Below, in pieces: positions 196-43,817 of a DNA stretch of 43,817 nucleotides (positions are counted from its first letter, which is position 1; each line of letters opens with the position of its first letter). This DNA is from Paenibacillaceae bacterium (lineage in GTDB: Bacteria; Bacillota; Clostridia; Lachnospirales; Lachnospiraceae). The stretch spans positions 1-43,817 of the forward strand of contig SVDS01000016.1 of NCBI GenBank assembly GCA_015057715.1. Direction: 5' to 3'. Below the pieces are notes generated by a model. The model did no database searches, was not told the DNA's origin, and saw only the letters and a list, made by a program, of their open reading frames with translations. A program made the translations under genes and the position numbers.

Positions 196-762
196 TTATT
201 TTGACATTAACCCCATTTCAAAAGCTCTTAAGTTAATTTCAATCAAACGAGAGGGGACATTTTCCCTTATAGCTTCAAACCAGATCTCTTTTTTTGTATC
301 TGTAATTGCAGCCAATGCTCCTAATAAGACAGCATTAACAGTTTTAATACTGCCTGCTTTCTGTGCATATTCCAAAGCATTAACTGTATAAAGGTTGATT
401 GGTAATTTCTTCAGTCTTTCCTCCATCTTTTCAGGATATGGCACAGAATTAGTCACAACTGGCATTGGGTCAATTCTCTGAGTACTGACAATTAGTGAGC
501 CGTCAGATTTTAACCAGTCAATATAGCGTACACCTTCTAACCATTCAAATGCCAAAATTACATCCGCACTGCCCTTTTCTATAACAGGTGAATAGATATT
601 TTTACCAATTCGTACGTGAGTAATTACACTTCCTCCTCTTTGAGACATTCCATGTACTTCAGATATTTTAACTTCCAAATCTTTTTTTTGTGCCAGTGTA
701 CCAAGTATTTTGCTGGCTAGTAACGCACCTTGTCCACCCACTGCTGATATCAGAATATTCAT
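196..762 (-). CDS. iorB: Indolepyruvate:ferredoxin oxidoreductase, beta subunit
   Basis: A 188-aa protein, the usual length for IorB. It starts with the glycine-rich AVGGQGALLASKILG segment and carries the family motif EVHGMSQRGGSV at residues 37-48, as in the gamma domain of 2-oxoacid:ferredoxin oxidoreductases. With IorA it decarboxylates aryl pyruvates (indolepyruvate, phenylpyruvate, 4-hydroxyphenylpyruvate) to arylacetyl-CoA and reduces ferredoxin, in the cytoplasm under anaerobic conditions. Its ATG overlaps the iorA stop codon by four bases (ATGA), with GGAGG nine bases upstream, which indicates translational coupling. In this cluster the product may supply the polyketide starter unit; that role is inferred from position. 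Confidence 0.92.
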   Translation of the reverse strand: MNILISAVGGQGALLASKILGTLAQKKDLEVKISEVHGMSQRGGSVITHVRIGKNIYSPVIEKGSADVILAFEWLEGVRYIDWLKSDGSLIVSTQRIDPMPVVTNSVPYPEKMEERLKKLPINLYTVNALEYAQKAGSIKTVNAVLLGALAAITDTKKEIWFEAIRENVPSRLIEINLRAFEMGLMSK

Positions 763-2513
763 GGCTGATTACCTCCTACTGAGACGTTTTTTCTAATTGC
801 CTGAAAGCTGCATACCTGGGCACAGAGTCCACATCCGATACATAAAGCTGAATTTATTTCAGCCTTGTTGTTTTTAAAGGATATGGAAGGACAGCCAATG
901 GTCAGGCAAACTTTACAGCCTTTGCAATCACTTACTTTAAGAGGCTGTATGTGTTCAGAATTCCGATTCAATAATACACAAGGTCTTTTGGTTATAATCA
1001 GGGATGGTTCTTCCACCTGCGTTTCTGTTTTTATTATTTTTTCCAGATTAATAAGATCATAAGCATCTACAGTCTGAATTCGTTTGATTCCAATTGCGTC
1101 TGCCAGAGAACGATAATCAATTGCTTTGCTCTCTTCGCCTCGAATTGTATAACCTGTACCAGCATGATCCTGGTTTCCAGTCATTGCAGTGGTCTGATTA
1201 TCAAGCAATATAACCGTTACATTGCCCTTATTGTAAACTACATCAATTAATGCTGTTATTCCTGAATGAATAAAAGTTGAATCACCAATAACCGCCACAG
1301 TTTTTTTAGAAAAATCTGTTCCCCGCGCTTTTTCTGCCCCCAGAGCCATACCGATGCTGGCTCCCATGCAAATGGATGTATCCATGGCATTTAATGGAGG
1401 GAATGCAGCCAGCGTATAGCAGCCAATATCCCCCATGACGTGCAACTTTAACTTTTTGAGCACATAAAAAACACCCCTGTGATGGCAGCCAGGACATAAA
1501 ACCGGGGGTCTGGCAGGAATGTCTGTTGTCAGATCTGTTTCAATTGATTGGATCCTTTCACCTGATATGGCATTTCTGATTATCTCCGTATTTAATTCTC
1601 CAATAGTGGGAAAAACTTTTTTGCCGATTACGTTCAACCCCCATGTCTTGATTTTTTCCTCAAAGACAGGCTCTAACTCTTCGATAACATATACTTTTTT
1701 ACATTTTTTAATAAAATCAGTTATTTTATTTTCAGGCAATGGATAAGACATTCCAAGCTTTAAAAAAGACGCATCTGGAAATGCTTCTTTTGAATATTGG
1801 TAGGCAATTCCGCTGGAGATAATGCCAAACTCCAGATTTTTATATTCCACTTGATTTAGTGCAGTTATTTCCGCATATTTTTCAAGTGACCTTAATCGAT
1901 CTTCTGCTACCACTCTGCGTTTTTTTGCCACTGCGGGAGCAACAATGTATTTATTGGGATTCTGCTGATAATTTTTTAAAGATGGGCTCTGATTATTCTC
2001 TAATTTGACAATACTTCTGGAATGTGAAACTCTTGTGCTTAATCTTAGGATAACGGGAGTATCAAACGCTTCACTGATGTTCAGTGCATGACCAACAAAT
2101 TCTTTACATTCTGCACTGTCAGATGGTTCTATTACCGGAATCTTAGCAGCGATACCAAAATATCTGGTATCCTGCTCATTTTGTGAACTATGCTGACCTG
2201 GGTCATCAGCAACAGCAATAACTAAACCAGCATTGACACCTGGATAAGAAATCGACATAAAAGGGTCTGCGGCCACATTAAGTCCTACATGCTTCATTGA
2301 AACAAGAGTTCTTGCCCCCGCAATCGAAGCACCTATACCAACCTCCATTGCAACCTTTTCATTTGGTGACCATTCTGCATTAATTTCTTTATATTTAATT
2401 ATGTTTTCGGTAATTTCCGTACTGGGTGTTCCCGGATATCCAGTTGCCACGGTTATACCATATTCAAAGGCACCCCGGGCAACTGCTTCATTGCCTGATA
2501 ATATTTTTTTCAT
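759..2513 (-). CDS. iorA: Indolepyruvate:ferredoxin oxidoreductase, alpha subunit
   Basis: A 584-aa protein of typical IorA length. The N-terminus has the pyrimidine-domain motif TGYPGTPSTEI. The thiamine-diphosphate site is visible as MGDIGCYTLAAFPP and VIGDSTFIHSG followed by LLDNQTTAMTG. Two ferredoxin-type 4Fe-4S motifs close the protein: CKGCKVC with a later Cys-Pro, and CIGCGLCAQVC. It catalyses oxidative decarboxylation of aryl pyruvates to arylacetyl-CoA, passing electrons to ferredoxin. The gene overlaps paaK by 26 bases. Its ATG has only a distant GGGGG stretch about 14 bases upstream, so it probably depends on translation of paaK. The enzyme is oxygen-sensitive in studied species, which supports an anaerobic host. 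Confidence 0.95.
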   Translation of the reverse strand: MKKILSGNEAVARGAFEYGITVATGYPGTPSTEITENIIKYKEINAEWSPNEKVAMEVGIGASIAGARTLVSMKHVGLNVAADPFMSISYPGVNAGLVIAVADDPGQHSSQNEQDTRYFGIAAKIPVIEPSDSAECKEFVGHALNISEAFDTPVILRLSTRVSHSRSIVKLENNQSPSLKNYQQNPNKYIVAPAVAKKRRVVAEDRLRSLEKYAEITALNQVEYKNLEFGIISSGIAYQYSKEAFPDASFLKLGMSYPLPENKITDFIKKCKKVYVIEELEPVFEEKIKTWGLNVIGKKVFPTIGELNTEIIRNAISGERIQSIETDLTTDIPARPPVLCPGCHHRGVFYVLKKLKLHVMGDIGCYTLAAFPPLNAMDTSICMGASIGMALGAEKARGTDFSKKTVAVIGDSTFIHSGITALIDVVYNKGNVTVILLDNQTTAMTGNQDHAGTGYTIRGEESKAIDYRSLADAIGIKRIQTVDAYDLINLEKIIKTETQVEEPSLIITKRPCVLLNRNSEHIQPLKVSDCKGCKVCLTIGCPSISFKNNKAEINSALCIGCGLCAQVCSFQAIRKNVSVGGNQP

Positions 2514-3849
2514 ATAGTATGCTGTTTCCCCCTATTGGTTTTGATAGCAGTATCCTTCTATTATCTATTACTCTGACTGCCTTACCTTCACTGCGTTTAA
2601 TACTTTGAGGCTCAACAATATTAATTTTAGCTGCAATTCCAATAACACTCTCCAATTTTTTGGTAACCAAAGAGCTTAATTGATCCAGATTATTTGGATA
2701 TCCGGGCAAAATATAGTCATTAAGTTCGATGTTAATGTTTAAATGATCTAGATTATTAATACGATCAACTACAATCTGATAATGGGGACTGACTTCAGTA
2801 AAATTCAACAGTACTGATTCAATCTGGGTGGGAAATACATTAACGCCACGGATAATTAACATGTCATCAGTTCTTCCAACTGGTTTTGTCATCCTGGTAT
2901 GAGTTCTGCCGCAATCACATGGTTCTTTAGTCAGACTGCAGATATCTCCGGTTTTATATCTGATCAGAGGAATTCCTTCTTTGTTAATGGTTGTAATCAC
3001 CAGACAGCCAGGTTTACCTTCCGTAAGTACCTCCCCCGTGTCTGGATTAATTACTTCAGCAATATAACTATCCTCCCAAATATGTAACCCATTTTGACAA
3101 GCACATTCCTGAGAAACAGAAGGCCCCATAATTTCACTCAGACCGTAGATGTCAAATGCTTTTAATCCTAGCTGGGATTCAATCTTCTGCCTCATTTCCT
3201 CTGTCCACGGCTCAGCTCCGAAAATACCGGAAGTAAGACTTAGTTCATGCTTTTTTATCCCCATCTGTTTCATAGTATCGGCAAGATATAAAGCATAGGA
3301 CGGTGTACAGCATATGCAGGTACTTCTGAAATCTCTCAGCATATTTATTTGCCTTTCGGTATTTCCGGTAGATGCCGGAATTGCAATTGCACCAACCCGC
3401 TCAACCCCATAGTGCACTCCCAGCCCACCTGTAAACAACCCATAGCCATAACAATTTTGTATTCTTGAATCCTTTTTTACTCCAGCCATAATCAGACAGC
3501 GAGCCATATTTTCAGACCAGTTTTCAATATCAGTTCTGGTATACCCTACTACTGTCTGTTTACCAGTTGTTCCACTTGATGCATGTACCCGGATAATATC
3601 CTCCAAGGGGGAAGCAAACATACCAAATGGATAGGTTTTTCGCAAATCCTCCTTATCTGTAAATGGAAGATTTTTTAGATCATCCAGGGTGTTGATATCA
3701 GCTGCAGAAATTCCTTTTTCCGTCATTTTTCTCGCATAATACGGTACATGTTCGGCTACATTTTTAACGGTTTGTTTTAATCGATGAAGTTGCAGTTCAT
3801 GCAGCTGCTTTCGTTCCATACATTCTATTTCCGCATTCCAAAATTTCAT
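2488..3849 (-). CDS. paaK: Phenylacetate-CoA ligase (arylacetate-CoA ligase)
   Basis: A 453-aa member of the adenylate-forming superfamily in the PaaK group. It shows the phosphate-binding loop HASSGTTGKQTVVGY near residue 95, the YGLSEIMGPSVSQEC motif, and the C-terminal catalytic lysine in KRSEGKAVRVID (Lys423). It converts arylacetates to arylacetyl-CoA with ATP and CoA. The C-terminus runs about 20 residues beyond the usual RVIDNR end because the gene overlaps the start of iorA by 26 bases. The ribosome binding site CAGGAG is seven bases before the ATG. paaK next to iorAB is common in anaerobes, where it salvages arylacetates. Here the three genes follow a discrete acyltransferase by 36 bases, suggesting they feed arylacetyl-CoA to the PKS. 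Confidence 0.93.
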   Translation of the reverse strand: MKFWNAEIECMERKQLHELQLHRLKQTVKNVAEHVPYYARKMTEKGISAADINTLDDLKNLPFTDKEDLRKTYPFGMFASPLEDIIRVHASSGTTGKQTVVGYTRTDIENWSENMARCLIMAGVKKDSRIQNCYGYGLFTGGLGVHYGVERVGAIAIPASTGNTERQINMLRDFRSTCICCTPSYALYLADTMKQMGIKKHELSLTSGIFGAEPWTEEMRQKIESQLGLKAFDIYGLSEIMGPSVSQECACQNGLHIWEDSYIAEVINPDTGEVLTEGKPGCLVITTINKEGIPLIRYKTGDICSLTKEPCDCGRTHTRMTKPVGRTDDMLIIRGVNVFPTQIESVLLNFTEVSPHYQIVVDRINNLDHLNINIELNDYILPGYPNNLDQLSSLVTKKLESVIGIAAKINIVEPQSIKRSEGKAVRVIDNRRILLSKPIGGNSILYEKNIIRQ

Positions 3850-3885: not shown

Positions 3886-4806
3886 CTACACCCTTTGAAA
3901 TCTTTCTTCACGGTTGATTTTTTTGATTGTTGTAAACTGCAAATCCAGATCAATTAATCTTGAAATTTTTGTTAATCCGCCATCCAGACCAACTTCTGCA
4001 AATTCTTCTATTCCCATATCTCTGATGGATAAAATTGTTGTTCTCCACATCATTGCCGATGACATATTCCGGATTAATTCCATTTTGAGCTTAGCGCTGC
4101 TATCGATCATATGTTGATCGTATACGGATAATATCGGGATGGATAAATTTTTCACTTCCAAACAATTAATATAATGGGCAAAAGACTCTATACCTGCCGC
4201 TCCTAAAGGACAGTGAAATGCATACCTGGTTTTCAACTTTTCAGCCCTGATTACTCCATCTGCAATGCACATTGAGAGAATGGTATCAATACCAGTCTCA
4301 ATTCCAGATATAGTAACACAATCATGATTGTTATCAATTGCCACATATACCATATCATTTAACTTTTTTTGGTCTATCATAGATGCTATCTGTTGAAAGC
4401 TTTTTCCTATAATCACTGCCATAGTCTGATTTGTAACCGTGTTAAGGCTTCTGTATTTTTCAATTTCTATCAGCATCCTTGCCCCGTCAGTAAAGCTGAC
4501 AGCACCTGTACAGGCGGCCGCAACAATTAACCCAAGGCTATAACCTACGAAAATACCAGGGCGATAACCTTTACTTATGTATGTTTCGTAGATTACATAA
4601 CCAATGGTATACACCGCCAGCCATTCAGTAATCATTTTATTATTTTCTGAAAACGTAAAGAGGTATTCTTTTATTTGGTACTTTAAAAGAACTGGATCCG
4701 TCAGGCATAATGTTTTGATTTTTTCTGTCTGTGCCTCGTTTAACGTGCTAAGAAGCGGCCGCACATCCACTCCCATTCCCTGAAAAAGAAAAGCCATGTT
4801 TTTCAA
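3886..4806 (-). CDS. Discrete acyltransferase, FabD-like fold, without the malonyl-binding Arg
   Basis: A 306-aa stand-alone acyltransferase of malonyltransferase length. The nucleophile is Ser90 in GYSLG, where FabD and AT domains have GHSLG. The catalytic His is His198 in YAFHCP. Aligned without gaps from Ser90 to E. coli FabD, the Arg that binds the malonyl carboxylate (Arg117) falls on Ile115, so the substrate is probably not a dicarboxylic acyl group. The start is TTG at 4804-4806 with GGAGGAG six bases upstream; the first internal ATG (codon 4) would be too far away. Its position before paaK-iorAB fits loading of arylacetyl-CoA onto a PKS carrier. The alternatives are an acyl hydrolase that cleans stalled carriers, or a trans-acting AT for the module with the dead AT. 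Confidence 0.85.
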   Translation of the reverse strand: MKNMAFLFQGMGVDVRPLLSTLNEAQTEKIKTLCLTDPVLLKYQIKEYLFTFSENNKMITEWLAVYTIGYVIYETYISKGYRPGIFVGYSLGLIVAAACTGAVSFTDGARMLIEIEKYRSLNTVTNQTMAVIIGKSFQQIASMIDQKKLNDMVYVAIDNNHDCVTISGIETGIDTILSMCIADGVIRAEKLKTRYAFHCPLGAAGIESFAHYINCLEVKNLSIPILSVYDQHMIDSSAKLKMELIRNMSSAMMWRTTILSIRDMGIEEFAEVGLDGGLTKISRLIDLDLQFTTIKKINREERFQRV

Positions 4807-4903: not shown

Positions 4904-6823
4904 TTATTGGAAAAATCCAGCATCTTTCATCTCATTAATGGTCTTTTTTACCGCATTAATAATATATTGAATATCTTCATTGCTATGCTCCGTTGATAAA
5001 AAGCAGTTTCGTCCCTCCCATACATAAATGCCCTTTTCCAGAAGGCCATAATAAAAAATTTCCTTTTCCAGATTAATGTTAAAGCGGAATAATGAGCTAA
5101 AATGATTAATATGAACCGGAACCTTCTCCAAATCAAAGAATTCATTTAATTCTGTAACCATCTCAGCGGTTTTCTGATTCAGATTATCGTATATCTGTGC
5201 TTTATTCTCTTTGATAAATTGTAAGACTGCATGTGCTGCCGTCATAGCTAATGGGTGATGACAAAAAGTGCCGGCAACAAACGTTCTCTTATCGTCGCAG
5301 GGAGGAACAGAATTATCACCAAACTTCCACATACCGCCGTCTATACTGTCTAAATATTCTCTTTTTCCAGCCAATATTCCGATTGGCATACCTCCGCCAA
5401 TCACCTTGCCATATGTAACTATGTCTGCCTTAACACCAAAATATTCCTGGGCTCCACCTGTGCAAATTCTAAAACCGGTAATGATCTCATCGAAAATCAG
5501 CGCAATATTGCACTGCTCAGTTACCGCTCTCAGCTTTTTAAGAAACGGGCCTGGCTGAAGGTCAGGTCGTCGGCTTTGCACTGGTTCCGTTAATACCGCA
5601 GCAATAATATCTGCATGAGACTCAATATAGCGCAGGGAATCCTCAGAATCATAATCCAGCAAAATAAGATCTCGTACCGAATTATCTGTTATTCCGGGAG
5701 TCAGTGAAATGGTATTTAAATCAGGGTCATCAGTAGGCATAGGTATTCCCAATACTCCATCATAGGTTCCATGAAAAGCACCCTTAAAACAGACAACCTT
5801 ATTTTTACCGGTAACTGCTCTTGCCACTCTGACCGCAAACATATCAGCCTCAGTGCCGGAATTGCAGAAAAATACTCTTTCTACACCAGTTAACTGAGCA
5901 ATGTCGCTGGCTACCTCTCCAGTCAGCCTGCCCATGGGCCCCAATGGCATTCCTTTTTCTAATTCAGCAAGTAAAGCCTTTTTAACAAAATCAGGATTGT
6001 GCCCAAACAGCAAAGCTCCGAATCCCATAGTTAAGTCAATCATTTCATTGCCATCTAAATCAACCAGTTTGTCTCCCCTGCCCTGATCAGCAATGATCTG
6101 ATACAGCATTTCTTTATAAAGCAGCCGAAAGCCTGCAGAATTCCGGTTACTTGCGTATACATGCCGATATTTTTGAGTCTGTTCTTTTGACGTTTTTGTC
6201 AGATTATTTACACGTTGTTCAATGTTTTTTATATAGGCCAGCTGAAGGGGAGGGACTTCATCCTCCTGATGCAATTCCATTTTCCGATAAGGTACGAAGT
6301 AATCCACCCGTTGCGCTGCAGTCTGTCTGCCTGGCTGCGGCTTTTGTTTTTGTGCAGGCTTAACGGCTTCTGGTTCTTTCTTTTTATTGGGCTCCGTTAT
6401 TAATTTTAAAATTTCATTTTGTTTCATAATGATATGATACTGACTGTCAAAAATCTTGACCAGATTCCCAAAATCAAGAGAATTACTATTAAGTGACGAA
6501 TCTATGGCAGGCAACATTTCCGATTCCACTGAATCAATTTCCTGAGTTTCCTCTTGTACCATTGAACTATTAATTACTATGTGTTCTGCAACCAGACGTA
6601 ATGTATTTAATGTAGTAAAAAAAATGTCTAATGGAATTACCAGTTGATAAATGGAATCAATCTGTTTGGATAAGGTTAACAACAAAATGGAATCCAGACC
6701 ATATGAAATCAATCTTCGGTCAATATCCATCGCTTCTTTTTCCATTCCTGAAATCATATGTATAATATCTTTTAATTCATCTGCAACTTTTAAAACTTCT
6801 GTCTGTTCCAGTTCCTTAATCAT
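4904..6823 (-). CDS. ACP-aminotransferase fusion, PKS beta-aminotransferase (AMT)
   Basis: A 639-aa two-domain protein. Residues 1-85 form an acyl carrier protein with the phosphopantetheine site Ser45 in YGLDSILLL. A Pro/Lys/Gln-rich linker follows at about 150-175. Residues about 200-639 are a class III aminotransferase of the glutamate-1-semialdehyde aminomutase-like group, with PLP lysine Lys473 in TYGKVIGGG and the LIFDEIITGFR motif. Such AMT domains in iturin-, microcystin- and microsclerodermin-type lines convert a carrier-bound beta-ketone to a beta-amine. The preceding gene encodes KS-AT without an ACP, so this ACP should complete that module. The ATG overlaps the KS-AT gene by eight bases, after GGAGG. 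Fusion with the ACP lets the intermediate be aminated in place. Confidence 0.92.
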   Translation of the reverse strand: MIKELEQTEVLKVADELKDIIHMISGMEKEAMDIDRRLISYGLDSILLLTLSKQIDSIYQLVIPLDIFFTTLNTLRLVAEHIVINSSMVQEETQEIDSVESEMLPAIDSSLNSNSLDFGNLVKIFDSQYHIIMKQNEILKLITEPNKKKEPEAVKPAQKQKPQPGRQTAAQRVDYFVPYRKMELHQEDEVPPLQLAYIKNIEQRVNNLTKTSKEQTQKYRHVYASNRNSAGFRLLYKEMLYQIIADQGRGDKLVDLDGNEMIDLTMGFGALLFGHNPDFVKKALLAELEKGMPLGPMGRLTGEVASDIAQLTGVERVFFCNSGTEADMFAVRVARAVTGKNKVVCFKGAFHGTYDGVLGIPMPTDDPDLNTISLTPGITDNSVRDLILLDYDSEDSLRYIESHADIIAAVLTEPVQSRRPDLQPGPFLKKLRAVTEQCNIALIFDEIITGFRICTGGAQEYFGVKADIVTYGKVIGGGMPIGILAGKREYLDSIDGGMWKFGDNSVPPCDDKRTFVAGTFCHHPLAMTAAHAVLQFIKENKAQIYDNLNQKTAEMVTELNEFFDLEKVPVHINHFSSLFRFNINLEKEIFYYGLLEKGIYVWEGRNCFLSTEHSNEDIQYIINAVKKTINEMKDAGFFQ

Positions 6824-9707
6824 AAGTTATTTCCTCCACCCCAATATTCTTCATTACTTTCCCAGATTCAAGCATCTGTTTTAGATAACTTCTTTGTTCC
6901 AGCAGCTGTGTCCGCTGTTTATTTAACAGCAGATCAGCAGTACCCGCACTCAGATCAGAGGCCGGTAATTGATGTGACCTGTCTTTCCAGGATGTCCTCC
7001 GGTCAAATGCATAACCTGGTAATGCCACCTTTTTCACCTGATATTCTTTATAAAGACCATCCCATTGCAGATTCATCCCATTTAAATAAAGTTGTTTTAA
7101 TGACTCACTCAGTTGCTTATAGCTGCCAATTCCATTTCTAAGCGTTGGAACACAGATTGCCTCCTGATTTTCCATACATTGCCCTGCCAGGCCGCACAAA
7201 GTGGCTGTCCCGCCAATTTCAATAAAGGCTGTTACTCCCAGTTTTTCCGCCTGTTCCATGGCAGCTTTAAAATTGACCGTATTCTCTAAATGCTGCATCC
7301 AATAATATTTATCCTCAAATAAATGATAATACTCCAGCTTTCCTGTCACACTGGAGATAACTTGAATCGGACTTTCCTTACCCCGGCCAGTCAGGTAATC
7401 CAGACTATCACCATAAGAACCGGTGTAGTGGTTCATTTCCACCGAATGGTATGGGTATCGGATACCAAGATCATTAACAAATACCCGCGCCCGCTGCTGA
7501 AGAAGATCAATAACCTGATCCACTTCTGCTGCCAATCCGGAGACAGTCACGTTTTTAGGTGCGTTTACCGCTGCAATTGATACATTATGACAGCCGCTTT
7601 CATTGATTATCTCCCGCATTCGGAATTCTTCAATCAATACTCCCACCATTTTTCCATTTGGTTTTACGCCTGACATCAGCCTGCTTCTGAGAGCTACCAT
7701 ATTTGTTATTTCTTCAAAACTGAGTATTTTGCTATAACAAAGCGCGGCATATTCGCCAATGCTGTGACCAATTACATAATCTGGAACAATATTTAGACTG
7801 TCCCAAATTTTAGTCAAAGAATATTCCAGGGAAAAGATTACTGGCTGTGAGTATAAGGCATTGTTCAAATGATCACCTGTCCGCTTGTATAGGGCATCAG
7901 TTACCGAGATACCTAACAGCTGTTTAAAGCGTTCATCGCATCTATTAAATGCATTTCGAAAGGCAGATGAAAATTGATAAAACTCCTGAGCTGCATTTTC
8001 ATAAATTGACCCTTGCCCCGTAAATAAAAAAGCGGTTTTTTTACGTTTTTCTGTGGATCTTCCCATGTAAAATCTGCTGATCTCCTGATTTTCTATGATT
8101 GAGTCAAGGGTTTTGATTATGTGTTCACGGGAATTTCCAACCAAAGCAAGACGGTATTCATTTTTAGCTCTGGTCACATTGGTGGAATATGCAATATCGG
8201 ATAAATGTTCAGCTGAACGGCTGATATAATCACGGATATCAGCCGCGGCTTTTACTAATGCTCCTTTATTTTTTGTGGATATGGTAATTATACCTTCCGG
8301 GAACTGTGGTTTTTCCTCAAAGCCATGGTCCTCTTCCGGTTGGGACTCTTCCAGAATAACATGAACCAGATTTCCGCTTATCCCAAAAGAACTGATTCCT
8401 GCACGCCTTTTTTTATCACTGCGCTGCCATTTGACGGGTTCAGCCACAACTTTCATTTTTTTCCAGTCAATATTGGGATTGGGCTGGTTAAAATGAATGC
8501 TTGGAGGAATACATTGATGTTTTAATGAGAGAAGTACTTTAATGACGCCTGCAATCCCGGCGGCTGCTTCCAGATGTCCAATGTTTGACTTTACTGAACC
8601 AATCAGGATTGGTTTCTGGCGATCCTTAAACGCATCACAGATTGCCTGGGTTTCAATAAAATCTCCCAGTGACGTGCCGGTTCCATGAGCCTCAATGTAA
8701 TCAATATCCTGCTGACTTAATCCGCCCTGCTTTAGGGCTGCTTCGATTACTCTTTGCTCTCCCAGCCCGTTAGGCGCATAAAAACCGTTAGACCTTCCAT
8801 CCTGTCCAATGTATATAGCCCGGATGAAAGCTTCAATGGTATTATTATCCCTTTTGGCATCTACGGCTCTTTTCAACAGAATGACACCGCCGCCTTCCCC
8901 TCTTCCAAACCCATCGGCAGACGCATCAAAGGTTTTACATCGTCCGTCTGGTGATAAAGCATGGAACTGTGAGAGCCCAATAAATGACTCAGGATTTAAC
9001 AATAAGTTAGCTCCGGCGACAATTGCCAGGTCACACTGACCTCCTCTTAAGCTGTCTACCGCCATATTCATTGCCGAAAGGGAAGAAGAACAGGCGGAAT
9101 TTATACAGATTGCCGGACCTTTGAAATCATAAAAATAAGCGATCCGGCCAGCGGTTGCATGAGAAGATATTCCAATTGCCGAATAAGGTCCAAGGTCGTT
9201 TACGTTTCCGGAAAATACCTCCCGACTGATATAATCCACCTCGTCCAGTCCGATAAAGACTCCTGTTTTGCTTCCCCGTAATTGAGCAATGTCAATACCT
9301 GCATTTTCTAATGCTTCCCAGCTTAGTTCCAACAGTAACTTTTGCTGTGGATCAAGAGAGGCAGCCTCTACAGCTGAAATCTCAAAATGGCTGTAATCAA
9401 AGGTTTTAATATCATGATCCAGAAAAGCGGCAGATTTGGTGTACATTTTACCCTGTACTGAGGAATCTTTACTATAAAAAGGCTGTGGGTCGAACCGATC
9501 AGGCTTAATTTCAGTAACAGCATCATATCCCTGCATTAGCTTTTCCCAGAATAACTGGGGATCATTGGCACCTCCCGGAAACCGGCAGTGGTAACCAATT
9601 ATTGCAATCTCATCTTTTTGCTGCAAACTTTTTAATTCAGCGTCTAATTCATTTATTTTTTCTGCAGCCTTAACTAAGGCTGCTTTATATTTGCCTATTT
9701 CATCCAT
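6816..9707 (-). CDS. Type I PKS, KS-AT, module lacking its own ACP
   Basis: A protein of about 963 aa from the preferred ATG at 9707, which has GGGGAAGGGAG just upstream. An upstream ATG at 9728 overlaps the previous stop but lacks a ribosome binding site. The N-terminus (MDEIGKYKAALVKAAEKI) is a short amphipathic helix typical of cis-AT PKS docking regions. The KS has Cys206 in NSACSSSL, His341 in EAHGTGT and His378 in NIGHLE. The AT has Ser649 in GHSIGEYA and keeps the carboxylate-binding Arg (ALRSRLM). Its specificity motif reads YPYHS, neither the malonyl HAFH nor the methylmalonyl YASH. There is no reductive domain and no ACP; the next gene supplies the ACP and aminotransferase. The divergent AT is a candidate for accepting hydroxymalonyl-ACP (inference). 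Confidence 0.93.
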   Translation of the reverse strand: MDEIGKYKAALVKAAEKINELDAELKSLQQKDEIAIIGYHCRFPGGANDPQLFWEKLMQGYDAVTEIKPDRFDPQPFYSKDSSVQGKMYTKSAAFLDHDIKTFDYSHFEISAVEAASLDPQQKLLLELSWEALENAGIDIAQLRGSKTGVFIGLDEVDYISREVFSGNVNDLGPYSAIGISSHATAGRIAYFYDFKGPAICINSACSSSLSAMNMAVDSLRGGQCDLAIVAGANLLLNPESFIGLSQFHALSPDGRCKTFDASADGFGRGEGGGVILLKRAVDAKRDNNTIEAFIRAIYIGQDGRSNGFYAPNGLGEQRVIEAALKQGGLSQQDIDYIEAHGTGTSLGDFIETQAICDAFKDRQKPILIGSVKSNIGHLEAAAGIAGVIKVLLSLKHQCIPPSIHFNQPNPNIDWKKMKVVAEPVKWQRSDKKRRAGISSFGISGNLVHVILEESQPEEDHGFEEKPQFPEGIITISTKNKGALVKAAADIRDYISRSAEHLSDIAYSTNVTRAKNEYRLALVGNSREHIIKTLDSIIENQEISRFYMGRSTEKRKKTAFLFTGQGSIYENAAQEFYQFSSAFRNAFNRCDERFKQLLGISVTDALYKRTGDHLNNALYSQPVIFSLEYSLTKIWDSLNIVPDYVIGHSIGEYAALCYSKILSFEEITNMVALRSRLMSGVKPNGKMVGVLIEEFRMREIINESGCHNVSIAAVNAPKNVTVSGLAAEVDQVIDLLQQRARVFVNDLGIRYPYHSVEMNHYTGSYGDSLDYLTGRGKESPIQVISSVTGKLEYYHLFEDKYYWMQHLENTVNFKAAMEQAEKLGVTAFIEIGGTATLCGLAGQCMENQEAICVPTLRNGIGSYKQLSESLKQLYLNGMNLQWDGLYKEYQVKKVALPGYAFDRRTSWKDRSHQLPASDLSAGTADLLLNKQRTQLLEQRSYLKQMLESGKVMKNIGVEEITYD

Positions 9708-9727
9708 AATTCTCCCTTCCCCAGACA

Positions 9728-12700
9728 TTATTTTGTCAGCTCAGCAATTTCCAACAGAATGTCATCGATGCTCTCCTCAGATTCAAGCACCGGCTTTTGG
9801 TCAAATATAAACACATCAGTAAGCAGATACTCGACCAGTCTGGTAATGGTGGGATAATTAAAGAACACTGAAATATTTAAATCAATCCCAAATAATTTGT
9901 TAATTGCAGTTCTCATGGAAAATGTCATCAGCGAATCAGCTCCCTGTTCTCTTAATGCTTCATTCAGTGACAGTGACTGGTCACTTTCAAAGCCCATGAT
10001 CTTTGCACACACAGGCCGGACCTTAGAGACCAGGAATTCCTCTCTCTCCTCAGGTGGCAATTGCTTTAGCGTATTTAATAATACACTGCTTTCCTCTTCC
10101 CCTTCTTCCTCTTTTAAACCTGCATCCAGAGTCACCAGACGTTCCAGGAAAATACTTTTACCTGCAGCATCATGAAATGATTTGTTCATCTGATCCCAAT
10201 CTGCATCTACAATCACCAGATTTTCGTAAGGGCGCTCCATAAAATCTTCCATTATTTTTTCAGCCTGTTCTTTGGAAAAAGGCTTCATCCCAATCCGTTC
10301 CATATTACTGGATATGCTTTTATTATTGGCAGCCATACCGCTTTCACCAAATGCTCCCCAGCAAAGGGTATATCCTGGAATTTGATTGTAACTGAGATAA
10401 GACGCAAAGATATTCATAAAATAATTAGCCACTGCATAATTAGCCTGTCCCATATTTCCAATAACACTGGTAACAGAAGAGGTCATCATAAAGAAATCAA
10501 GGGGATCTTTACAAAGCAGCTGATATAGGTTGATACTTCCATTTACTTTTGCCTTAATGACCGCTTCAAAATCAGACCACTCAGCATTTTGGATTGTCTT
10601 ATCATTAATGATACCAGCGGCATGCACCACGCCTCCAATGGGCGGCAGGCTTAGTTTAACCTGGTTTAAGACTTTTTTCAGGTTTTCATAATCACTGATA
10701 TCCGCAAAAATTATATCTGTTTTGACGTTAAGATCGTTAAAACGTCTGATTGCCTCTATTGCTTTTTGCCCTGGTTCTTTTGTGCATAATAAGATCAGAT
10801 GTCTGGCACCGGATTTTACGAACTGCTCTGCATAAGTAAGGCCTACCGTTCCGGTTCCTCCTGTAATCAGGTAGCAGCAGTCAGGCCGGATCTTTAATTC
10901 AGGATTTGGGAAAGCTGCATTTTTCAAATAATCCTCATGTGAAATTAATCTTGCACTATAAAAATGCTTTTCTCTAAAACAGATATCCTGGAAATTGTGA
11001 TTTAATAATTCATCCATAAAATTGCTATCCTGATCAAAGGCAGATTGGTCGCAGTCAATGATTCCGTTATATAATTCCGGATATTCAATACTGAATACTC
11101 TGGATAAGCCCCATAACAAAGATCCTGACAAGTTAACGCAGCCTCTGTTTTTAAAAGGCTGAACATTCCTTGTTACAATTTTTATGCTGCTGCCCTGTGA
11201 GTATCCTTCTTCACTTATTGCTTTAATAAGGGATAACAATGCTTTTACCGGCTGGCAGTCCACTTGCTCCATGTCACTACGGCGTAAATCTGCTTCTCCG
11301 CCGCAGAAGATAATATGTAAATTTCCCCTTTTACCATTCTGGCAAATATTCTTCAATAATTCCTGCCAATCAGTATCCATACCTGCTTTTATTGGCTCAA
11401 TACCCAGTGTTTTCATTTTTTTGCCAATACAGCAGGTCAAAGAATCTTCCTTTTCCTCTGAAATAATCAGATATTTATCATCAGATCTGATTATTTTAAG
11501 CGGTTTAGTTTCTAAGAGAGGAATCCAGTCTGTGTGATAATACATTTTATCCAGACTCCTGGTTTCCCGCAGTAAACTGTTGCTGTCAGTGATTTTTGCC
11601 ATTAAATTAATAATTTTAATCACGACCTGCCCCTGATCATTATATACGGTGAGATCTACGTAAATAATTCCATTTTCATAACGTGACCTTGTATCACACC
11701 ATAAGCGGTCTGAAGGATAATAATTATAAGTAAACTCTTCCAGATAGTATGGAATAACGGTGACATTTTTGTCTTTAAAGATACCATCATCACGCATCTT
11801 TTCTTCAATAAAGGCAAAACCGGTCTGCAAAATCGAATCAATTGTACCAGGATAAAGTACATATTCATTTAAATAAGGGACTGATTTTAAAGGCTCAATC
11901 TGACAGATACACCCCTTATGTGCAAAACTAATTGCTTTAATTCCCCGAAACCCATCTCCAAGCTTAAAACCAGACTGTCTCATGGCATAGTAAACACCTG
12001 TTGTTTCCATATCAGACTTGTAGCTGAGCTGCCTGTATTTATTAATATCTGCCTGCTGCCAGGTGAATTGAAATTCGTGCAGAATTTTGACATTGCCTTT
12101 GACATGCAGCTTCCATTTGTCATTCTCAGAATTATAATCTTTGCTGTGAATGCTAAACTTCGGCAGATCACCGCTCTTTTCTATACAAAGCTGAACTTTT
12201 CTTGCAGCATCACCGTCAACAGATAGAGGAGACCGGAATTCCAGGTTACTAAGAGTACAGCTTTTGGCATTATCAATCTCCTTAACTCCGGCAAGCATCA
12301 TTCCAATGTGGGCTGCTGCCGGTGAAATGGCAACATCAAAAATAATATGTTCTTTCATAAAAAATGGTTCTGCAGCAGTAAATTTACTTTGAAACAGTAC
12401 CGTATCATTGATATGAGACAGATCAATTTTCTGACCAAGGATTTTGTGACAATCAGTGGAGTCAATGGTATGGGATTCCCTATCATAGAATAACTCCATA
12501 GGATATTTACTTTTTTCATATGGATAATTGGGAAGCTTTGCTTTCATCCAGCTTTCGTTCCCGGCAAAATTAATCTGATTCCAATTTAAATTAACACCTG
12601 CTGCATAAAGAAGTGCGATGTCTTCAGCAATCTGAATATGATCTGCTTTTTTAAAATTTAAAGATGATACCAAAATCCGATCCTGTTCAAAAATCAGTTT

Positions 12701-15445
12701 TGCCAGGGCAGACAACACCCGGTTACTTCCGACTTCCATTAAAATATGATTTTCCTTCTTTTCAATGCTGCTGACAGCGCCATAAAAATCAACCTCTTCC
12801 CGGATATGTCTTGTCCAATACTCACTGTCTAAGATTTCTTCTGGTCCGATTTCCCTTGCATATAAAGCTGATACGAATCTGATATGCGGGGAGTGGTACT
12901 CTATTTCATCAGCAATTGACTGGTATTCATTAAGAATGGGGTCCATCAGCATTGAATGAAAACCATGGGAAACTTTTAACTCTTTTACTGTAATTCCTTC
13001 TGCTGCGGCCCGACTGGCCACCAAACGAACATCGGTGGAAGATCCTGAAATAACACAGGTATCCAGTGCATTCCGGGCAGCAATACAAACCGAATTATCA
13101 TAGCCCTGCAACAGTTCCGTCACTTTTTCCCTGTTTGCAAAAATGGTAGCCATACTGCCGCTGCCAGGAGCCTGATCCATCAGTTTGCTGCGGGCCGATA
13201 CCAGTTTAACCGCATCCTCAAGGCTTAGAATTCCAGCTTCTACTGCCGCCGCATACTCGCCTATACTATGTCCCATTACCAAATCAGGTTTATTCCCATA
13301 ATCTTCCCACATTTTTGATAAAGCATATTCGATTGCAAAAATTAACGGCTGGGCATATGCAGTCCTTTCAATAATCTGGTCAGATGTGTTTTCACCATAT
13401 ATTAATTCCACAATGGATTTTAATAAATGTGGTTTGAACAATCCCTCACACTGATCAAAAGCCTGCCGGAAAATTTCATTGGTATCATACAGCAGCTTAC
13501 CCATACTTAAATACTGGGAGCCCTGTCCGGTATACATAAATGCCACTTTGCGGTCTTTTTGTAACATCAGCGGATCTTTCGTGTTAACAAAAATCCCTTC
13601 TGTATCGTAACCATCAAGATACTGTTCCAACCGCTTAAGAAGCATAGTTGGGCTGCCGGCGCATACGGCAAAACGGTAATCAAGATCCGTTCGGCAGCGG
13701 TTAGCCGTATAAATGATATTTTGAAATTCCTCTTTTGTGCTGTTTGTCAACAGGACGTGATACTGACGGACTAATTCTGTTAATGAAGTTTTACTCTTGG
13801 CAGAAAGCTTTAATACCCAGTCTATTCCACCCTTTTCAGAATCCTCAACTCCATTTTGCTGTGGCTGCCTGTATTCTTCAATAATGACATGAGCATTGGA
13901 ACCACCAAAGCCAAAACCATTTACTGCAGCTGCCCTTAAACCATTTTCTTTTTTCCACTGGGTATGTTGACTGACTACTTCCAGGTTGGTGTCTTTCCAG
14001 TTGATTAAAGGATTGGGCGTATGAAAATGAAGATTTCCCGGAATTAAGCCATGCCTCATTGAGAGCAGTACTTTAATAATTGAGGAAATTCCGGCAGCAG
14101 CTTCCAAATGACCGATATTGGATTTAACTGAGCCAATCTTTAAACGATTATTATCATCCCGGTTTTTTCCATAAACAGCAGCAACTGCATTTACCTCAAT
14201 AGGATCCCCCAGCTTGGTTCCGGTCCCATGCATTTCCACATAATCGATATCCAGGTTATTTAAACCGGCATTGGATAAGGTTCTGCGTATTAATTTTTCC
14301 TGGGCTTCTCCGTTTGGAGCAGTCAGACCATTACTTTTTCCATCCTGATTAATGCCTGTTGACCGGATAACTCCCAGAATTTCATTTCCATCCTGAATTG
14401 CCTGAGACAAACATTTAAGGAGAATCACTCCACCGCCCTCACCCCGTCCATAGCCATCGGCTGAAGCATCAAATGCCTTGCTGTGTCCGTCTGTGGAGGT
14501 TGCCTGTAATTTTGAAAATCCCACATTACTGCAGGGACTTTCAATGATATTAATTCCTGCCACAACCTGTAAATCCGCTTCTTTCGCCTGCAATGCTGTA
14601 CAGGCCAGATGAAGAGCGGATAAAGTGGAAGAACAGGCGGTATCCACGCTGACACAGGGTCCTTCAAAACCAAACGTATATGCAATTCTTCCGCATGCGG
14701 TACTAAAGCAGCTTCCAGTTAATGAATATGGTCCTATTTTAGATAAGTCCCCAGAATGTAAATGTGCCATATTATACTCATTTGTAGAAATTCCAAGATA
14801 TACTCCGGTATCACTGCCATTATATCTGGCAATATCCAAATTGGCATTTTCAAAAGCCTCCCATGTCAGCTCCAGCAGCAGACGCTGCTGTGGATCAAGA
14901 GCCTGTGCCTCCTTTGGGGAAATATTAAATAAGCGGGCATCAAATGCGTCTATATCAGACTTTAAAAAGCCTCCTTTTTTGCAGTACATTTTTCCCGGCG
15001 CATTCTTATCTTCATCATAATATTTCAAAAGATCCCAACGTGACTTTGGGATCTCACAGATACCGTCTTCTCCACTTAGAAGGAACTCCCAATATTTATC
15101 AACATTGTCAGCTCCGCCCGGCAAGCGGCAGCTCATTCCTACGATAGCAATTTGATCCCTGATCTGCCCTCCCCCATTTTCACACGATACATCATTTTCT
15201 TTTTTTGTGTTAAGTAAGGAATCAACATAATTCGTCATAAGAGAAACATTAAAACATTTAAAAATATCAGACACATTAATTTCAACAGAAAATTCTTTTG
15301 AGAGTATTTTGACAAAGAGCGGAATATCCAGTGATACCATTCCATATTCCGTAAAAGGAGTATTATTATCTGTAATGGTAATGTCAAAATTATCTTCAAT
15401 AATTGAAAGTACCCGTTTTAAAATAGTATTTTTCGTATCTATCAT
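9728..15445 (-). CDS. Type I PKS, ACP-KS-AT-DH-KR-ACP
   Basis: A 1905-aa loading-plus-extension protein. Residues 1-80 are a carrier domain with Ser38 in GMVSLDIP, where the usual Asp before Ser is Val. The KS follows with Cys271 in DTACSSTL, plus EMHGTGT and NIGHLE. The AT has Ser727 in GHSIGEYAAAV, Arg in SARSKLM and a GFHS motif close to malonyl-type HAFH. The DH has His1033 in EHIIFDVAISP (Gly of HxxxGxxxxP is Asp) and Asp1203 in GTIDSIL. The KR has TGGTGTVG near 1526, Ser and Tyr in TSSVTS and GQANYAVAN, and HAAGIIND, close to the B-type LDD signature. The last ACP has GADSL near 1838. No ER is present, so the expected product is an enoyl thioester. The N-terminal carrier is the likely starter acceptor. 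Confidence 0.94.
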   Translation of the reverse strand: MIDTKNTILKRVLSIIEDNFDITITDNNTPFTEYGMVSLDIPLFVKILSKEFSVEINVSDIFKCFNVSLMTNYVDSLLNTKKENDVSCENGGGQIRDQIAIVGMSCRLPGGADNVDKYWEFLLSGEDGICEIPKSRWDLLKYYDEDKNAPGKMYCKKGGFLKSDIDAFDARLFNISPKEAQALDPQQRLLLELTWEAFENANLDIARYNGSDTGVYLGISTNEYNMAHLHSGDLSKIGPYSLTGSCFSTACGRIAYTFGFEGPCVSVDTACSSTLSALHLACTALQAKEADLQVVAGINIIESPCSNVGFSKLQATSTDGHSKAFDASADGYGRGEGGGVILLKCLSQAIQDGNEILGVIRSTGINQDGKSNGLTAPNGEAQEKLIRRTLSNAGLNNLDIDYVEMHGTGTKLGDPIEVNAVAAVYGKNRDDNNRLKIGSVKSNIGHLEAAAGISSIIKVLLSMRHGLIPGNLHFHTPNPLINWKDTNLEVVSQHTQWKKENGLRAAAVNGFGFGGSNAHVIIEEYRQPQQNGVEDSEKGGIDWVLKLSAKSKTSLTELVRQYHVLLTNSTKEEFQNIIYTANRCRTDLDYRFAVCAGSPTMLLKRLEQYLDGYDTEGIFVNTKDPLMLQKDRKVAFMYTGQGSQYLSMGKLLYDTNEIFRQAFDQCEGLFKPHLLKSIVELIYGENTSDQIIERTAYAQPLIFAIEYALSKMWEDYGNKPDLVMGHSIGEYAAAVEAGILSLEDAVKLVSARSKLMDQAPGSGSMATIFANREKVTELLQGYDNSVCIAARNALDTCVISGSSTDVRLVASRAAAEGITVKELKVSHGFHSMLMDPILNEYQSIADEIEYHSPHIRFVSALYAREIGPEEILDSEYWTRHIREEVDFYGAVSSIEKKENHILMEVGSNRVLSALAKLIFEQDRILVSSLNFKKADHIQIAEDIALLYAAGVNLNWNQINFAGNESWMKAKLPNYPYEKSKYPMELFYDRESHTIDSTDCHKILGQKIDLSHINDTVLFQSKFTAAEPFFMKEHIIFDVAISPAAAHIGMMLAGVKEIDNAKSCTLSNLEFRSPLSVDGDAARKVQLCIEKSGDLPKFSIHSKDYNSENDKWKLHVKGNVKILHEFQFTWQQADINKYRQLSYKSDMETTGVYYAMRQSGFKLGDGFRGIKAISFAHKGCICQIEPLKSVPYLNEYVLYPGTIDSILQTGFAFIEEKMRDDGIFKDKNVTVIPYYLEEFTYNYYPSDRLWCDTRSRYENGIIYVDLTVYNDQGQVVIKIINLMAKITDSNSLLRETRSLDKMYYHTDWIPLLETKPLKIIRSDDKYLIISEEKEDSLTCCIGKKMKTLGIEPIKAGMDTDWQELLKNICQNGKRGNLHIIFCGGEADLRRSDMEQVDCQPVKALLSLIKAISEEGYSQGSSIKIVTRNVQPFKNRGCVNLSGSLLWGLSRVFSIEYPELYNGIIDCDQSAFDQDSNFMDELLNHNFQDICFREKHFYSARLISHEDYLKNAAFPNPELKIRPDCCYLITGGTGTVGLTYAEQFVKSGARHLILLCTKEPGQKAIEAIRRFNDLNVKTDIIFADISDYENLKKVLNQVKLSLPPIGGVVHAAGIINDKTIQNAEWSDFEAVIKAKVNGSINLYQLLCKDPLDFFMMTSSVTSVIGNMGQANYAVANYFMNIFASYLSYNQIPGYTLCWGAFGESGMAANNKSISSNMERIGMKPFSKEQAEKIMEDFMERPYENLVIVDADWDQMNKSFHDAAGKSIFLERLVTLDAGLKEEEGEEESSVLLNTLKQLPPEEREEFLVSKVRPVCAKIMGFESDQSLSLNEALREQGADSLMTFSMRTAINKLFGIDLNISVFFNYPTITRLVEYLLTDVFIFDQKPVLESEESIDDILLEIAELTK

Positions 15446-16472: not shown

Positions 16473-17234
16473 TCAGCTGTGTTTCCCCTTTATAATATTA
16501 AAAATAAACTCTGCTTTTTCTTCAGTTTTCCCGTCTATATATGCTTTTTTCTTTTTACATATCTCCTTCTCAATCTGCATCACTCTTGTTTTAGAGCCTT
16601 CCAGTCCGCACTTTTCTTCCTCCACCTCAAGATCGGCAGCATTCCAGACAGTGATTTCACTTTTCCTGGCTTTTTTTAATGCTAACAGGCTGATTTGTGG
16701 CTGTGACAGAATAAAGTCATGAAAAGCCACAATTGCCGGCAGGTTTAATTGACCCACCAGATTTTCCGATTCTGTTACCTGCATCACTTTAAGTGCATCT
16801 GCACTGGCATCTAAGATTTCGGCCACTTCGGGTAAACAGTAATATCTAAGGCGTTCGCCTATCCCATATACTACCTGTCCGGTTTCACCATCAATTGTTC
16901 TTCTGCCGCAAGTCACCAGACTTACATTACCAATCTGTTTAATTGCCTTTGCCAATATGTAAGAAGTAGCAACGGTATCAGATCCCCGAAATAAATTATC
17001 ATTTAAAATAATTGCCTGATCGGTTCCCATCGCCAGAGCTTTCTGCATCATCCCAACCGCCCCCATTGGTCCCATGCACAGGCATATAATTTTACAATCC
17101 ATAAATTGTTTTATTTTGACAGTCTCCTGCAAAGCATATAAATCATAGGGATTTATTAAATATTCTTCCACCCGCGACTCAGAGGGATAAACCAGTTCTG
17201 ATTTTACCGGTTTTATGCATACAACAATTTTCAT
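16473..17234 (-). CDS. etfB: Electron transfer flavoprotein, beta subunit
   Basis: A 253-aa protein beginning MKIVVCIKPVK. It carries the EtfB signature region FRGSDTVATSYILAKAI and GRRTIDGETGQVVYGIGERL, the nucleotide-binding segment of this subunit in clostridial-type ETFs. It pairs with EtfA, encoded 20 bases downstream. AAGGAG lies six bases before the ATG. The order dehydrogenase-etfB-etfA is the same as in butyryl-CoA dehydrogenase operons, but the companion dehydrogenase here is FkbI-like and sits beside an FkbH homologue, which argues for a secondary-metabolite role. Whether this ETF bifurcates electrons cannot be judged from these motifs. Confidence 0.93.
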   Translation of the reverse strand: MKIVVCIKPVKSELVYPSESRVEEYLINPYDLYALQETVKIKQFMDCKIICLCMGPMGAVGMMQKALAMGTDQAIILNDNLFRGSDTVATSYILAKAIKQIGNVSLVTCGRRTIDGETGQVVYGIGERLRYYCLPEVAEILDASADALKVMQVTESENLVGQLNLPAIVAFHDFILSQPQISLLALKKARKSEITVWNAADLEVEEEKCGLEGSKTRVMQIEKEICKKKKAYIDGKTEEKAEFIFNIIKGKHS

Positions 17235-20543: not shown

Positions 20544-20569
20544 AATACTCCCCTCCACTCCCTATTATC

Positions 20570-24995: not shown

Positions 24996-25032
24996 GCTGT
25001 TCCTTTCTTTGATGCAGATTTTATCAAACTGT

Positions 25033-43135: not shown

Positions 43136-43618
43136 TTAAAAAGTCCAGAACCCATCAATATTTATAGATAAAACTGTTAAGTAAATGGCATATATGACCG
43201 TCACAATGATCATTGCAATTTCATTTTTATCTTTTTTCCCCTTCATTTTAATACTGTTTAAATGGGACCATGTTCCACTGATACTGTACATATACCAGTT
43301 AATCAGGGTAGCCGTCCAGAATCCTCCCCGAAACCAGATACACATAATCCCCAGAACACCAATTGCGATTTGCGAGAAGCCATATTTAATCTGCCAGGGT
43401 CCACCAGGCCATCCGAGATATTTGGCATTTTTTTCTGCGAAAGCAATATTACTAAAAAAACCAACAATTCCCACGTCACCAAAGAGTACTACAAATTGAT
43501 GAAGTAAAAGAATGGAAGAAATTGTGCCAGCATCACCAGGAAATCCCCGTATGTATAAATGAATAATACCTGTAACAACCCCCAGAATAATATTTAAAGT
43601 AAAAATCATATTAGCCAC
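43136..43618 (-). CDS. DUF6790-type four-helix membrane protein
   Basis: A 160-aa protein with four hydrophobic segments at about 4-22, 35-60, 82-110 and 134-154. The GWPGGPWQIKYGFSQIAIGVLGI stretch resembles the DUF6790 family, whose function is not known. AGAGGTGG lies five bases before the ATG. The gene sits between the biotin carrier gene and the first megasynthase, 34 bases from the latter, and may be the first gene of the cluster transcript or an unrelated insertion. A role in export or immunity cannot be excluded but has no sequence support. Confidence 0.7.
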   Translation of the reverse strand: MANMIFTLNIILGVVTGIIHLYIRGFPGDAGTISSILLLHQFVVLFGDVGIVGFFSNIAFAEKNAKYLGWPGGPWQIKYGFSQIAIGVLGIMCIWFRGGFWTATLINWYMYSISGTWSHLNSIKMKGKKDKNEIAMIIVTVIYAIYLTVLSINIDGFWTF

Positions 43619-43665
43619 CTCTTTTATTTAATATTTTTAGTAACTGTTAACACCAGTTTTTATGG

Positions 43666-43817
43666 TTATGTACTTGTCAGTGACACTCCTATTTTTAGTA
43701 TAGGCTGCCCATATTCCACTTCCTCTCCGTCTTTTACCATAATTTCTGTCACTTTACCATCAACCGGACATATCACATTGTTATAAAGTTTCATTGCCTC
43801 AATCGTACAAAGAGGAT
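43666..43817 (-). CDS. accB: Biotin carboxyl carrier protein of acetyl-CoA carboxylase, C-terminal fragment
   Basis: The last 49 residues of a protein that starts beyond the right edge, read from the + strand TTA stop at 43666-43668. The biotin site is the Lys in CTIEAMKLYNN, matching the EAMKM motif. The tail DGEEVEYGQPILKI is typical of AccB rather than of decarboxylase biotin subunits. AccB carries carboxybiotin for the synthesis of malonyl-CoA, the extender for the malonyl-type AT domains here. Genes for the other carboxylase subunits may lie to the right, which would make the carboxylase part of the cluster; the window does not show this. Confidence 0.85.
   Translation of the reverse strand, partial: PLCTIEAMKLYNNVICPVDGKVTEIMVKDGEEVEYGQPILKIGVSLTST

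Follow-up and report, generated by a model that had tools for sequence, protein, structure and literature searches.

The window analysed in this study, bases 1-43817 of the 52,585-bp contig SVDS01000016.1, carries a gene cluster that probably encodes an aryl-primed pathway of the hybrid polyketide synthase-nonribosomal peptide synthetase (PKS-NRPS) type, in what we infer to be an anaerobic clostridium. The substrates, the order of the steps, the product and its release are proposed here from the gene content. Twenty-one genes lie in the window, all on the minus strand and with 20 intergenic gaps of -53 to +97 bp. Their order is C-A-PCP-KS-AT-ACP-C-A-PCP-KS, AT0-ACP-C-A-PCP-C, transporters, a hydroxymalonyl-ACP cassette with electron transfer flavoprotein (ETF) genes, ACP-KS-AT-DH-KR-ACP, KS-AT, ACP-AMT, a discrete acyltransferase, PaaK, IorA and IorB (Table 1; KS, ketosynthase; AT, acyltransferase; ACP, acyl carrier protein; AMT, aminotransferase). 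Domains and families were assigned by Pfam and NCBIfam profile searches with their cut-offs. Catalytic residues of the KS, carrier, AMT, DH and C domains were located by a pattern scan, and the ATs and C domains were also aligned. The KS Cys-His-His, carrier Ser, AMT Lys and C-domain motifs were all found in the window proteins; the KS Cys of the KS-AT protein (SACSSSL) and the Ser of the discrete ACP (GLVNSL) were read by eye, outside the pattern scan. All genes named in a first-pass annotation of this DNA were recovered by profiles and motifs at the places it gave, on the minus strand. Its interval of 196-43817 describes the gene content correctly but not the extent of the cluster, since the cluster continues beyond the window on the contig to position 52,585.

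The arylacetyl starter proposed in that annotation is supported by several observations. IorA scores above the TIGR03336 cut-off, the solved structures closest to PaaK are phenylacetate-CoA ligases (match over residues 2-432), the discrete AT lacks the Arg that binds the malonyl carboxylate, all of these genes lie inside an inserted segment, and the AMP ligase found in a related cluster of an uncultured Clostridia bacterium (G099) is missing. The paaK, iorA and iorB genes overlap (-4 and -26 bp) and follow the discrete AT gene by 36 bp. An Ile aligns at the malonyl-carboxylate Arg position of FabD-type transacylases in the discrete AT, while the Arg is kept in all five intact cis ATs used as the alignment control (three of the window and two of G099). 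A search of 391 class genomes with the discrete AT at E <= 1e-15 matched 103, mostly at 21-27% identity. The five best homologues besides the window's own (G180, two in G296, G016 and G307; 31-39%) all lack that Arg, and all six proteins read GYS[LM]G. This agrees with the earlier description of the enzyme as non-malonyl-type. According to PMC4207774, ATs for ACP-bound extenders have hydrophobic residues before the YASH box where CoA-type ATs have basic ones. The discrete AT reads RAE in this carrier motif, with a basic first residue (by eye on the alignment), which leans towards a CoA-borne, non-carboxylated acyl group and is not proof of one. An AlphaFold2 model of the discrete AT from the single sequence had a mean pLDDT of 32.9 and was not used.

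The discrete AT could have another role. In the 1918-residue NRPS protein, a KS-AT linker comes first, then a dead AT and ACP-C-A-PCP-C. In the alignment the Ser motif of the dead AT is GTGITE and the catalytic His is gone, so the AT0 noted earlier is real and its module needs an AT from elsewhere. The discrete AT might therefore act in trans on this module as a malonyl or ACP-extender transferase, or hydrolyse acyl groups from stalled chains, with the starter loaded otherwise, for example by PaaK alone. The best argument for the trans role is that ZmaF, an aminomalonyl-ACP AT, also reads GYSLG in Table 2 of PMC4207774. However, the carboxylate Arg is absent from the discrete AT and its five homologues, and RAE begins with a basic residue. 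AT0 could instead be charged by the adjacent cis AT or by a stand-alone PF00698 protein encoded elsewhere in the genome (C51; 321 residues, FabD-like), and a thioesterase is already present in the cluster. We consider both alternative roles improbable.

The trio and the discrete AT belong to a segment with recognizable edges. The site comparison covered 20 of 26 matching places (the window itself one of them) and five longer stretches. All 20 places align within window positions 1-211. In the closest ones the alignment breaks off at 208-211, within the 3' end of iorB, and the contig of G019 ends at window 197. After window 1-208, G018 next matches the far end of the window's contig (L032 2424-2586, 94.5%), 31 bp away; in G003 and G004 it is L032 2232-2316 (79-80%), 31 and 28 bp away. 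The far-end match in G023 is only 33 bp, and no far-end match was found in the remaining genomes compared within the stretches examined. The far end matched in the empty sites corresponds to contig 52.2-52.6 kb. Because the flanks lie 28-31 bp apart in G018, G003 and G004, the alignments indicate that about 52 kb, from iorB to upstream of a sensor kinase, is absent from these empty-site genomes. This insertion holds IorAB, PaaK and the discrete AT. The cluster is probably a self-contained unit that moves horizontally. The adenosine-deaminase-like gene beside iorB is present in 25 of 25 genus genomes. The site next to it is variable in the genus, being occupied by the cluster, a transporter pair (G017), an aldolase gene and its neighbours (G003) or, in G018, directly by the far flank.

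The insertion edges bear on the explanation that paaK-iorAB is an ordinary aromatic-acid catabolic operon merely lying next to the cluster. A paaK-iorA-iorB-paaK locus does exist in G180 away from its AT homologue, which demonstrates that the trio can stand alone. In the window, however, the trio overlaps, lies 36 bp from the AT gene within the insertion edges and recurs in G019, a second carrier of the same genus. Of 25 genus genomes searched with PaaK at E <= 1e-50, two gave a match, both of them cluster carriers, and the remaining 23 gave none. A catabolic operon is an unlikely explanation, and a chance neighbourhood of paaK-iorAB was likewise weakened by the empty-site comparison. At the same threshold IorA is single-copy in this genome; of the 25 genus genomes nine have it, including this one and G019. 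A second IorA as a housekeeping gene was also considered: none was found in this genome at E <= 1e-50, and a copy at 72-74% is present in 6 of 25 genus genomes. In G016 and G007, the two that were read, this copy belongs to another series, which includes ketosynthase-like genes (gene families assigned in G016 only).

Genes for the proposed steps after priming were also identified. The hydroxymalonyl-ACP gene set is complete, as an FkbH-type protein, a discrete ACP, a hydroxyacyl dehydrogenase and an acyl dehydrogenase are encoded together, and this supports the hydroxymalonyl extension proposed earlier. Beta-amination is similarly supported by an iturin-type ACP-AMT in which the PLP Lys is present (GKVIGGG). 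The carrier motif is FVN in the KS-AT protein and in its counterpart in G099, and TVK and KST in the other cis ATs of the window (counted by eye). FVN leans towards an ACP-borne extender at this KS-AT, again short of proof. The Pfam domain order agrees with a hybrid line of three A domains and two unreduced C2 modules.

Two relatives help in reading this series. In G019 the order from the first NRPS protein (NRPS1) to IorB, which is the range read, is repeated on two contigs: one (C67) carries NRPS1, NRPS2, a transmembrane protein, a type II thioesterase and the MFS exporter, and the other (C54, SVDT01000034.1) runs from the end of the MFS gene to IorB. An AMT protein scan reduced 29 candidate stretches to four loci, at 99% (L014, which is G019), 70% (L015), 39% (L016) and 26% (L017). 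The L015 contig belongs to G099/G296, an uncultured Clostridia bacterium listed in the same class as the window's genome, so that the Paenibacillaceae label of the latter is probably wrong. This contig has the order 3-hydroxyacyl dehydrogenase (HCDH), ACP, acyl dehydrogenase, EtfB, EtfA, PKS, KS-AT, ACP-AMT, DUF6790 and first C-A, ending in the first A domain. Identities to the window proteins are 73.6% (HCDH), 80.5% (acyl dehydrogenase), 68.1% (EtfB), 68.5% (EtfA), 58.7% (PKS), 64.5% (KS-AT), 70.4% (AMT), 53.8% (DUF6790) and 54.8% (first C-A); the ACP was read and left unscored. The G099 PKS opens with an AMP-ligase domain, read as FAAL from its sequence, and an ACP. The window PKS aligns to it from residue 4, inside the ACP, and hence the fused AMP ligase is absent from the window. 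The window's IorAB, PaaK and AT sit at the opposite end of the series from the PKS start where G099 has the ligase. Of FkbH, G099 retains just the final ~30 codons in this series, located between the ACP and the acyl dehydrogenase (L028 5850-6215), with an IS630-like ORF upstream, named from its letters. Other contigs of G099 carry four FkbH homologues, of which two are at 51-53% and the others at 29-32%.

Based on these genes, the following pathway can be proposed. IorAB would convert an arylpyruvate into arylacetyl-CoA, and PaaK would make or salvage the same thioester from the free acid. The discrete AT would transfer the arylacetyl group to the first ACP. After one malonyl cycle, in which KR and perhaps DH act, and one hydroxymalonyl cycle, the AMT would complete a 3-amino-2-hydroxy-6-aryl-hex-4-enoyl unit; with a dead DH, the 5-hydroxy form would result instead. 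The first C domain would hand this unit to three amino-acid modules with two unreduced C2 modules between them, the C2 units staying beta-keto. Release would be by the divergent terminal C-like domain rather than by a TE domain. The last intermediate could undergo Dieckmann closure to a 3-acyl tetramic acid, which is chemically open.

Several results weigh against this reading or parts of it. PaaK does not reach the cut-offs for phenylacetate-CoA ligase. In G180, G296 and G307, which carry homologues of the discrete AT as well, IorA is on another contig, and the AT family is therefore not tied to aryl groups. G099/G296 has its own IorAB (IorA 50%) on a separate 5.8-kb contig, without PaaK there, so that position and not possession separates the two genomes. 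In the KS-AT protein, FVN has no basic residue and its Phe is hydrophobic, but its Asn is not. The AT domain of this protein reads GHSIG...YPYH and not GYSFG...GAAH, the motifs given for the hydroxymalonyl AT of ZmaA in PMC4207774, and among solved structures it matches CurL best and ZmaA third-best. The DH reads HIIFDVAISP in the window and HIIFDIAISP in G019, that is, HxxxDxxxxP with Asp for the Gly of HxxxGxxxxP, while the DH of G099 is canonical (HVIFGAAISP). Since the Gly is replaced, the 4-ene is uncertain; if Asp inactivates the DH, the unit may be the 5-hydroxy compound instead. The amino, hydroxy and aryl parts of the 3-amino-2-hydroxy-6-aryl-hex-4-enoyl unit drawn in the first-pass annotation are supported, and its 4-ene is weakened.

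The AT homologue of G016 has AFOR, KASIII-like, KS, B12-radical-SAM, enoyl-CoA hydratase and glycosyltransferase genes in its series, and IorAB lies about 13 kb from it. In G180, too, an AFOR gene adjoins the homologue. The series in G007 (L066), G180 (L062) and G296 (L064) resemble that of G016 (L060/L061) by first residues only.

The scores of the starter enzymes also leave room for a non-aromatic acyl-CoA starter, as relatives of IorAB and PaaK accept other 2-oxo acids and acids, and PaaK, as well as IorB for TIGR03334, falls under the equivalog cut-offs. On the other hand, IorA passes TIGR03336, IorB passes NF005325 and PaaK is closest to the solved phenylacetate-CoA ligases, and there seems little chance of such a starter. 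That the cluster makes an already known compound is very unlikely: no description of this combination was found in open-licence full text, in line with the earlier statement that no published cluster matches, and close AMT relatives are scarce. Besides the genome itself, only G019 has an AMT match above 39% in 99 kin genomes, and at E <= 1e-90 the AMT was found in 3 of 398 sampled phylum genomes including this one, the other two at 42-53% in frames of 3092-4001 codons. HCDH at E <= 1e-80 was found in 8 of 391 sampled class genomes including this one, with G296 next best at 74%. The phylum and class counts are samples, and further carriers may exist. In phages, 58 records were returned for the AMT, all with less than 80% query coverage; those listed, five in number, were unannotated and at 30-32%.

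Genomes without the cluster provide a hint about its product. At the same site G017 carries an ABC ATPase and FtsX pair (L117 940-4075; 3136 bp at 88.5%) with both ORFs open, together with a 68-bp agr-like piece and an 85-bp far-end match. In G005 (L105 1-1395) the 1395 bp examined contain the ATPase gene and the 3' portion of the FtsX gene, at 88-89% identity. Neither genome has a close AMT, or PaaK at E <= 1e-50. These transporter pairs look like immunity-only loci, that of G005 probably so. The survival of the ABC-FtsX pair alone, with its putative immunity role, hints at an antibacterial product. Taken together, a natural starter-unit swap is a tentative but possible history: a lipo-initiated beta-amino line may have been made aryl-primed by the loss of the AMP ligase and the gain of paaK-iorAB, an anaerobic catabolic trio that already existed, and of an Arg-less AT from an undescribed clade. 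The aryl-CoA supply, alpha-hydroxyl and beta-amino groups would then be made without O2, and the product would be an antibacterial compound whose immunity genes persist in non-producers. We put somewhat less trust in this whole scenario than an even chance would imply.

The remaining parts of the line and the genes around it were also read. The C-domain motifs are HHLIADG, HHSVADG and HHIISDQ, and the terminal one is DHVIFDG. The terminal C-like domain (26601-27917) had a single weak solved-structure match (E 0.0013). Used as a query it returned three plasmid records at 21-25%, two of which end A-PCP-C proteins of one Paenibacillus strain (L087 and L089); a divergent terminal C-like domain thus closes TE-less NRPS proteins in the window and in that strain. 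The A-domain codes, read by eye, are DITNFGVMW (A1), DIFAIGVIW (A2) and DAMAIGGVI (A3), and gave no trusted substrate assignment. LgrA tops the solved-structure searches for all three A domains on whole-chain score, in which two A domains are added up. When domains are scored singly, only A1 is nearest LgrA (its second A domain, 399.9 bits), whereas McyA and GrsA score above LgrA for A2, and SrfA-C does so for A3. An EE motif in the 294-residue hydrophobic protein (25724-26608) recalls CPBP-type immunity proteins, by eye only.

The genes upstream of the DUF6790 gene, which share its orientation and belong to the same insertion, are a BCCP-like ORF, accA, accD, LoaP (137.6 bits against a cut-off of 125), agrB, a LytTR regulator, a PPTase, accC and a GHKL kinase (L013 1792-10000 and L032 849-2132). 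The BCCP-like ORF is broken by a run of N (L013 1819-1828), has no Pfam match and was named from its position; the GHKL sensor kinase, truncated where L013 ends, is whole in L032 (427 aa). Malonyl-CoA supply, carrier-protein activation, quorum sensing and antitermination thus seem to be built into the cluster. LoaP acts on polyketide operons, and its antitermination has reportedly been described in Bacillus velezensis. An Rfam search of the window, L013 and L032 at gathering scores gave no match.

Table 1. Features of the window, listed by position.
Feature	Position	Strand	Basis or remark
Adenosine-deaminase-like gene, N-terminus; chromosomal, outside the cluster, marks its end	3..134	-	match in 25/25 genus genomes; name from letters only
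IorB, indolepyruvate oxidoreductase subunit beta	196..762	-	PF01558; NF005325 264.6 bits (cut-off 230); TIGR03334 194.8, below 205.8
Right edge of inserted cluster, few codons within 3' end of iorB	208..211	.	closest same-genus alignments stop there
IorA, TPP and 4Fe-4S subunit	759..2513	-	TIGR03336 710.4 bits, cut-off 650.9
PaaK-type arylacetate-CoA ligase	2488..3849	-	PF14535/PF00501; best solved matches 4r1l, 2y27; TIGR02155 545.7 bits, below 646.3
Discrete acyltransferase, proposed arylacetyl loading AT	3886..4806	-	PF00698; GYSLG...YAFH, no malonyl-binding Arg
ACP-aminotransferase (AMT)	4904..6823	-	PF00550+PF00202; 45% to bamA region; 70% to G099
KS-AT, proposed hydroxymalonyl extension	6816..9728	-	Pfam; non-basic carrier motif FVN before YPYH
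ACP-KS-AT-DH-KR-ACP	9728..15445	-	begins at loading ACP where G099 has AMP ligase-ACP
EtfA	15451..16452	-	PF00766+PF01012
EtfB	16473..17234	-	PF01012
Acyl-CoA/ACP dehydrogenase, hydroxymalonyl cassette	17254..18390	-	PF00441/02770/02771; 80% to G099
FkbH-type glyceryl transferase/phosphatase	18390..19430	-	TIGR01686 272.1 bits, cut-off 146.65
Discrete ACP for hydroxymalonate	19461..19691	-	PF00550 22.5 bits, cut-off 20.8
3-Hydroxyacyl dehydrogenase of cassette	19710..20558	-	PF02737+PF00725
ABC transporter ATPase, candidate self-immunity	20570..21331	-	at same site in G017 and G005, both without cluster
FtsX-type permease, candidate self-immunity	21335..23659	-	Pfam; whole gene with ATPase in G017; 3' part seen in G005
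MFS exporter	23667..25085	-	PF07690
Type II thioesterase	25033..25755	-	PF00975; 'type II' from position
Hydrophobic protein, 294 aa	25724..26608	-	no Pfam or NCBIfam match
AT0-ACP-C-A-PCP-C(terminal), 1918 aa	26598..32354	-	Pfam; AT0 without Ser and His; terminal C DHVIFDG
C-A-PCP-KS-AT-ACP-C-A-PCP-KS, 3580 aa	32359..43101	-	Pfam
DUF6790 membrane protein	43136..43618	-	PF20589; G099 also has one beside first C-A

To our knowledge, few natural products have been described from strict anaerobes. The proposed pathway would be a concrete example of how 2-hydroxy-3-amino aryl acids, compounds of a kind found in aminopeptidase inhibitors, can be assembled without oxygen. The window and G099 form a cluster pair differing in the chain start, and the clade of ATs is open to in vitro work. 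The transporter-only loci make self-protection and its ecology testable.

The cluster combines known parts in a new way. Like the iturin family (bacillomycin BamA), of which mycosubtilin is a member, it has an ACP-AMT (45% to the bamA region) and beta-amination before a C domain; it differs in a putative aryl instead of a fatty starter, the absence of the fatty-acid-activating AMP ligase that the iturin branch has fused to its loading ACP, the hydroxymalonyl extension, two hybrid C2 modules and the lack of a TE domain. The hydroxymalonyl genes of zwittermicin A encode a hydroxyacyl dehydrogenase, an ACP, an FkbH-type protein and an acyl dehydrogenase. The two pathways share an AT with a non-basic carrier motif, but the AT motifs differ (GHSIG/YPYH against GYSFG/GAAH in ZmaA) and EtfAB lie within the window operon. 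Microginin and nostophycin have a 2-hydroxy-3-amino acyl N-terminus, which in nostophycin bears a phenyl group and is of the 5-hydroxy type. Their hydroxyl comes from an oxygen-dependent hydroxylase, whereas in the window it would come via the extender, fitting an anaerobe. The stand-alone iorAB-paaK locus of G180 (L096) has the same trio (IorA 58%, PaaK 53-58%), but that of the window belongs to a biosynthetic series behind a discrete AT. The closest relative found, G099 (CALGKJ010000057), shares the hydroxymalonyl cassette, PKS, KS-AT, ACP-AMT, DUF6790 and first NRPS module at 54-80%. Unlike the window, it has an AMP ligase (FAAL-like) on the loading ACP, an FkbH remnant and the PKS before the NRPS, and it looks like a line of the same kind that starts with a fatty acid.

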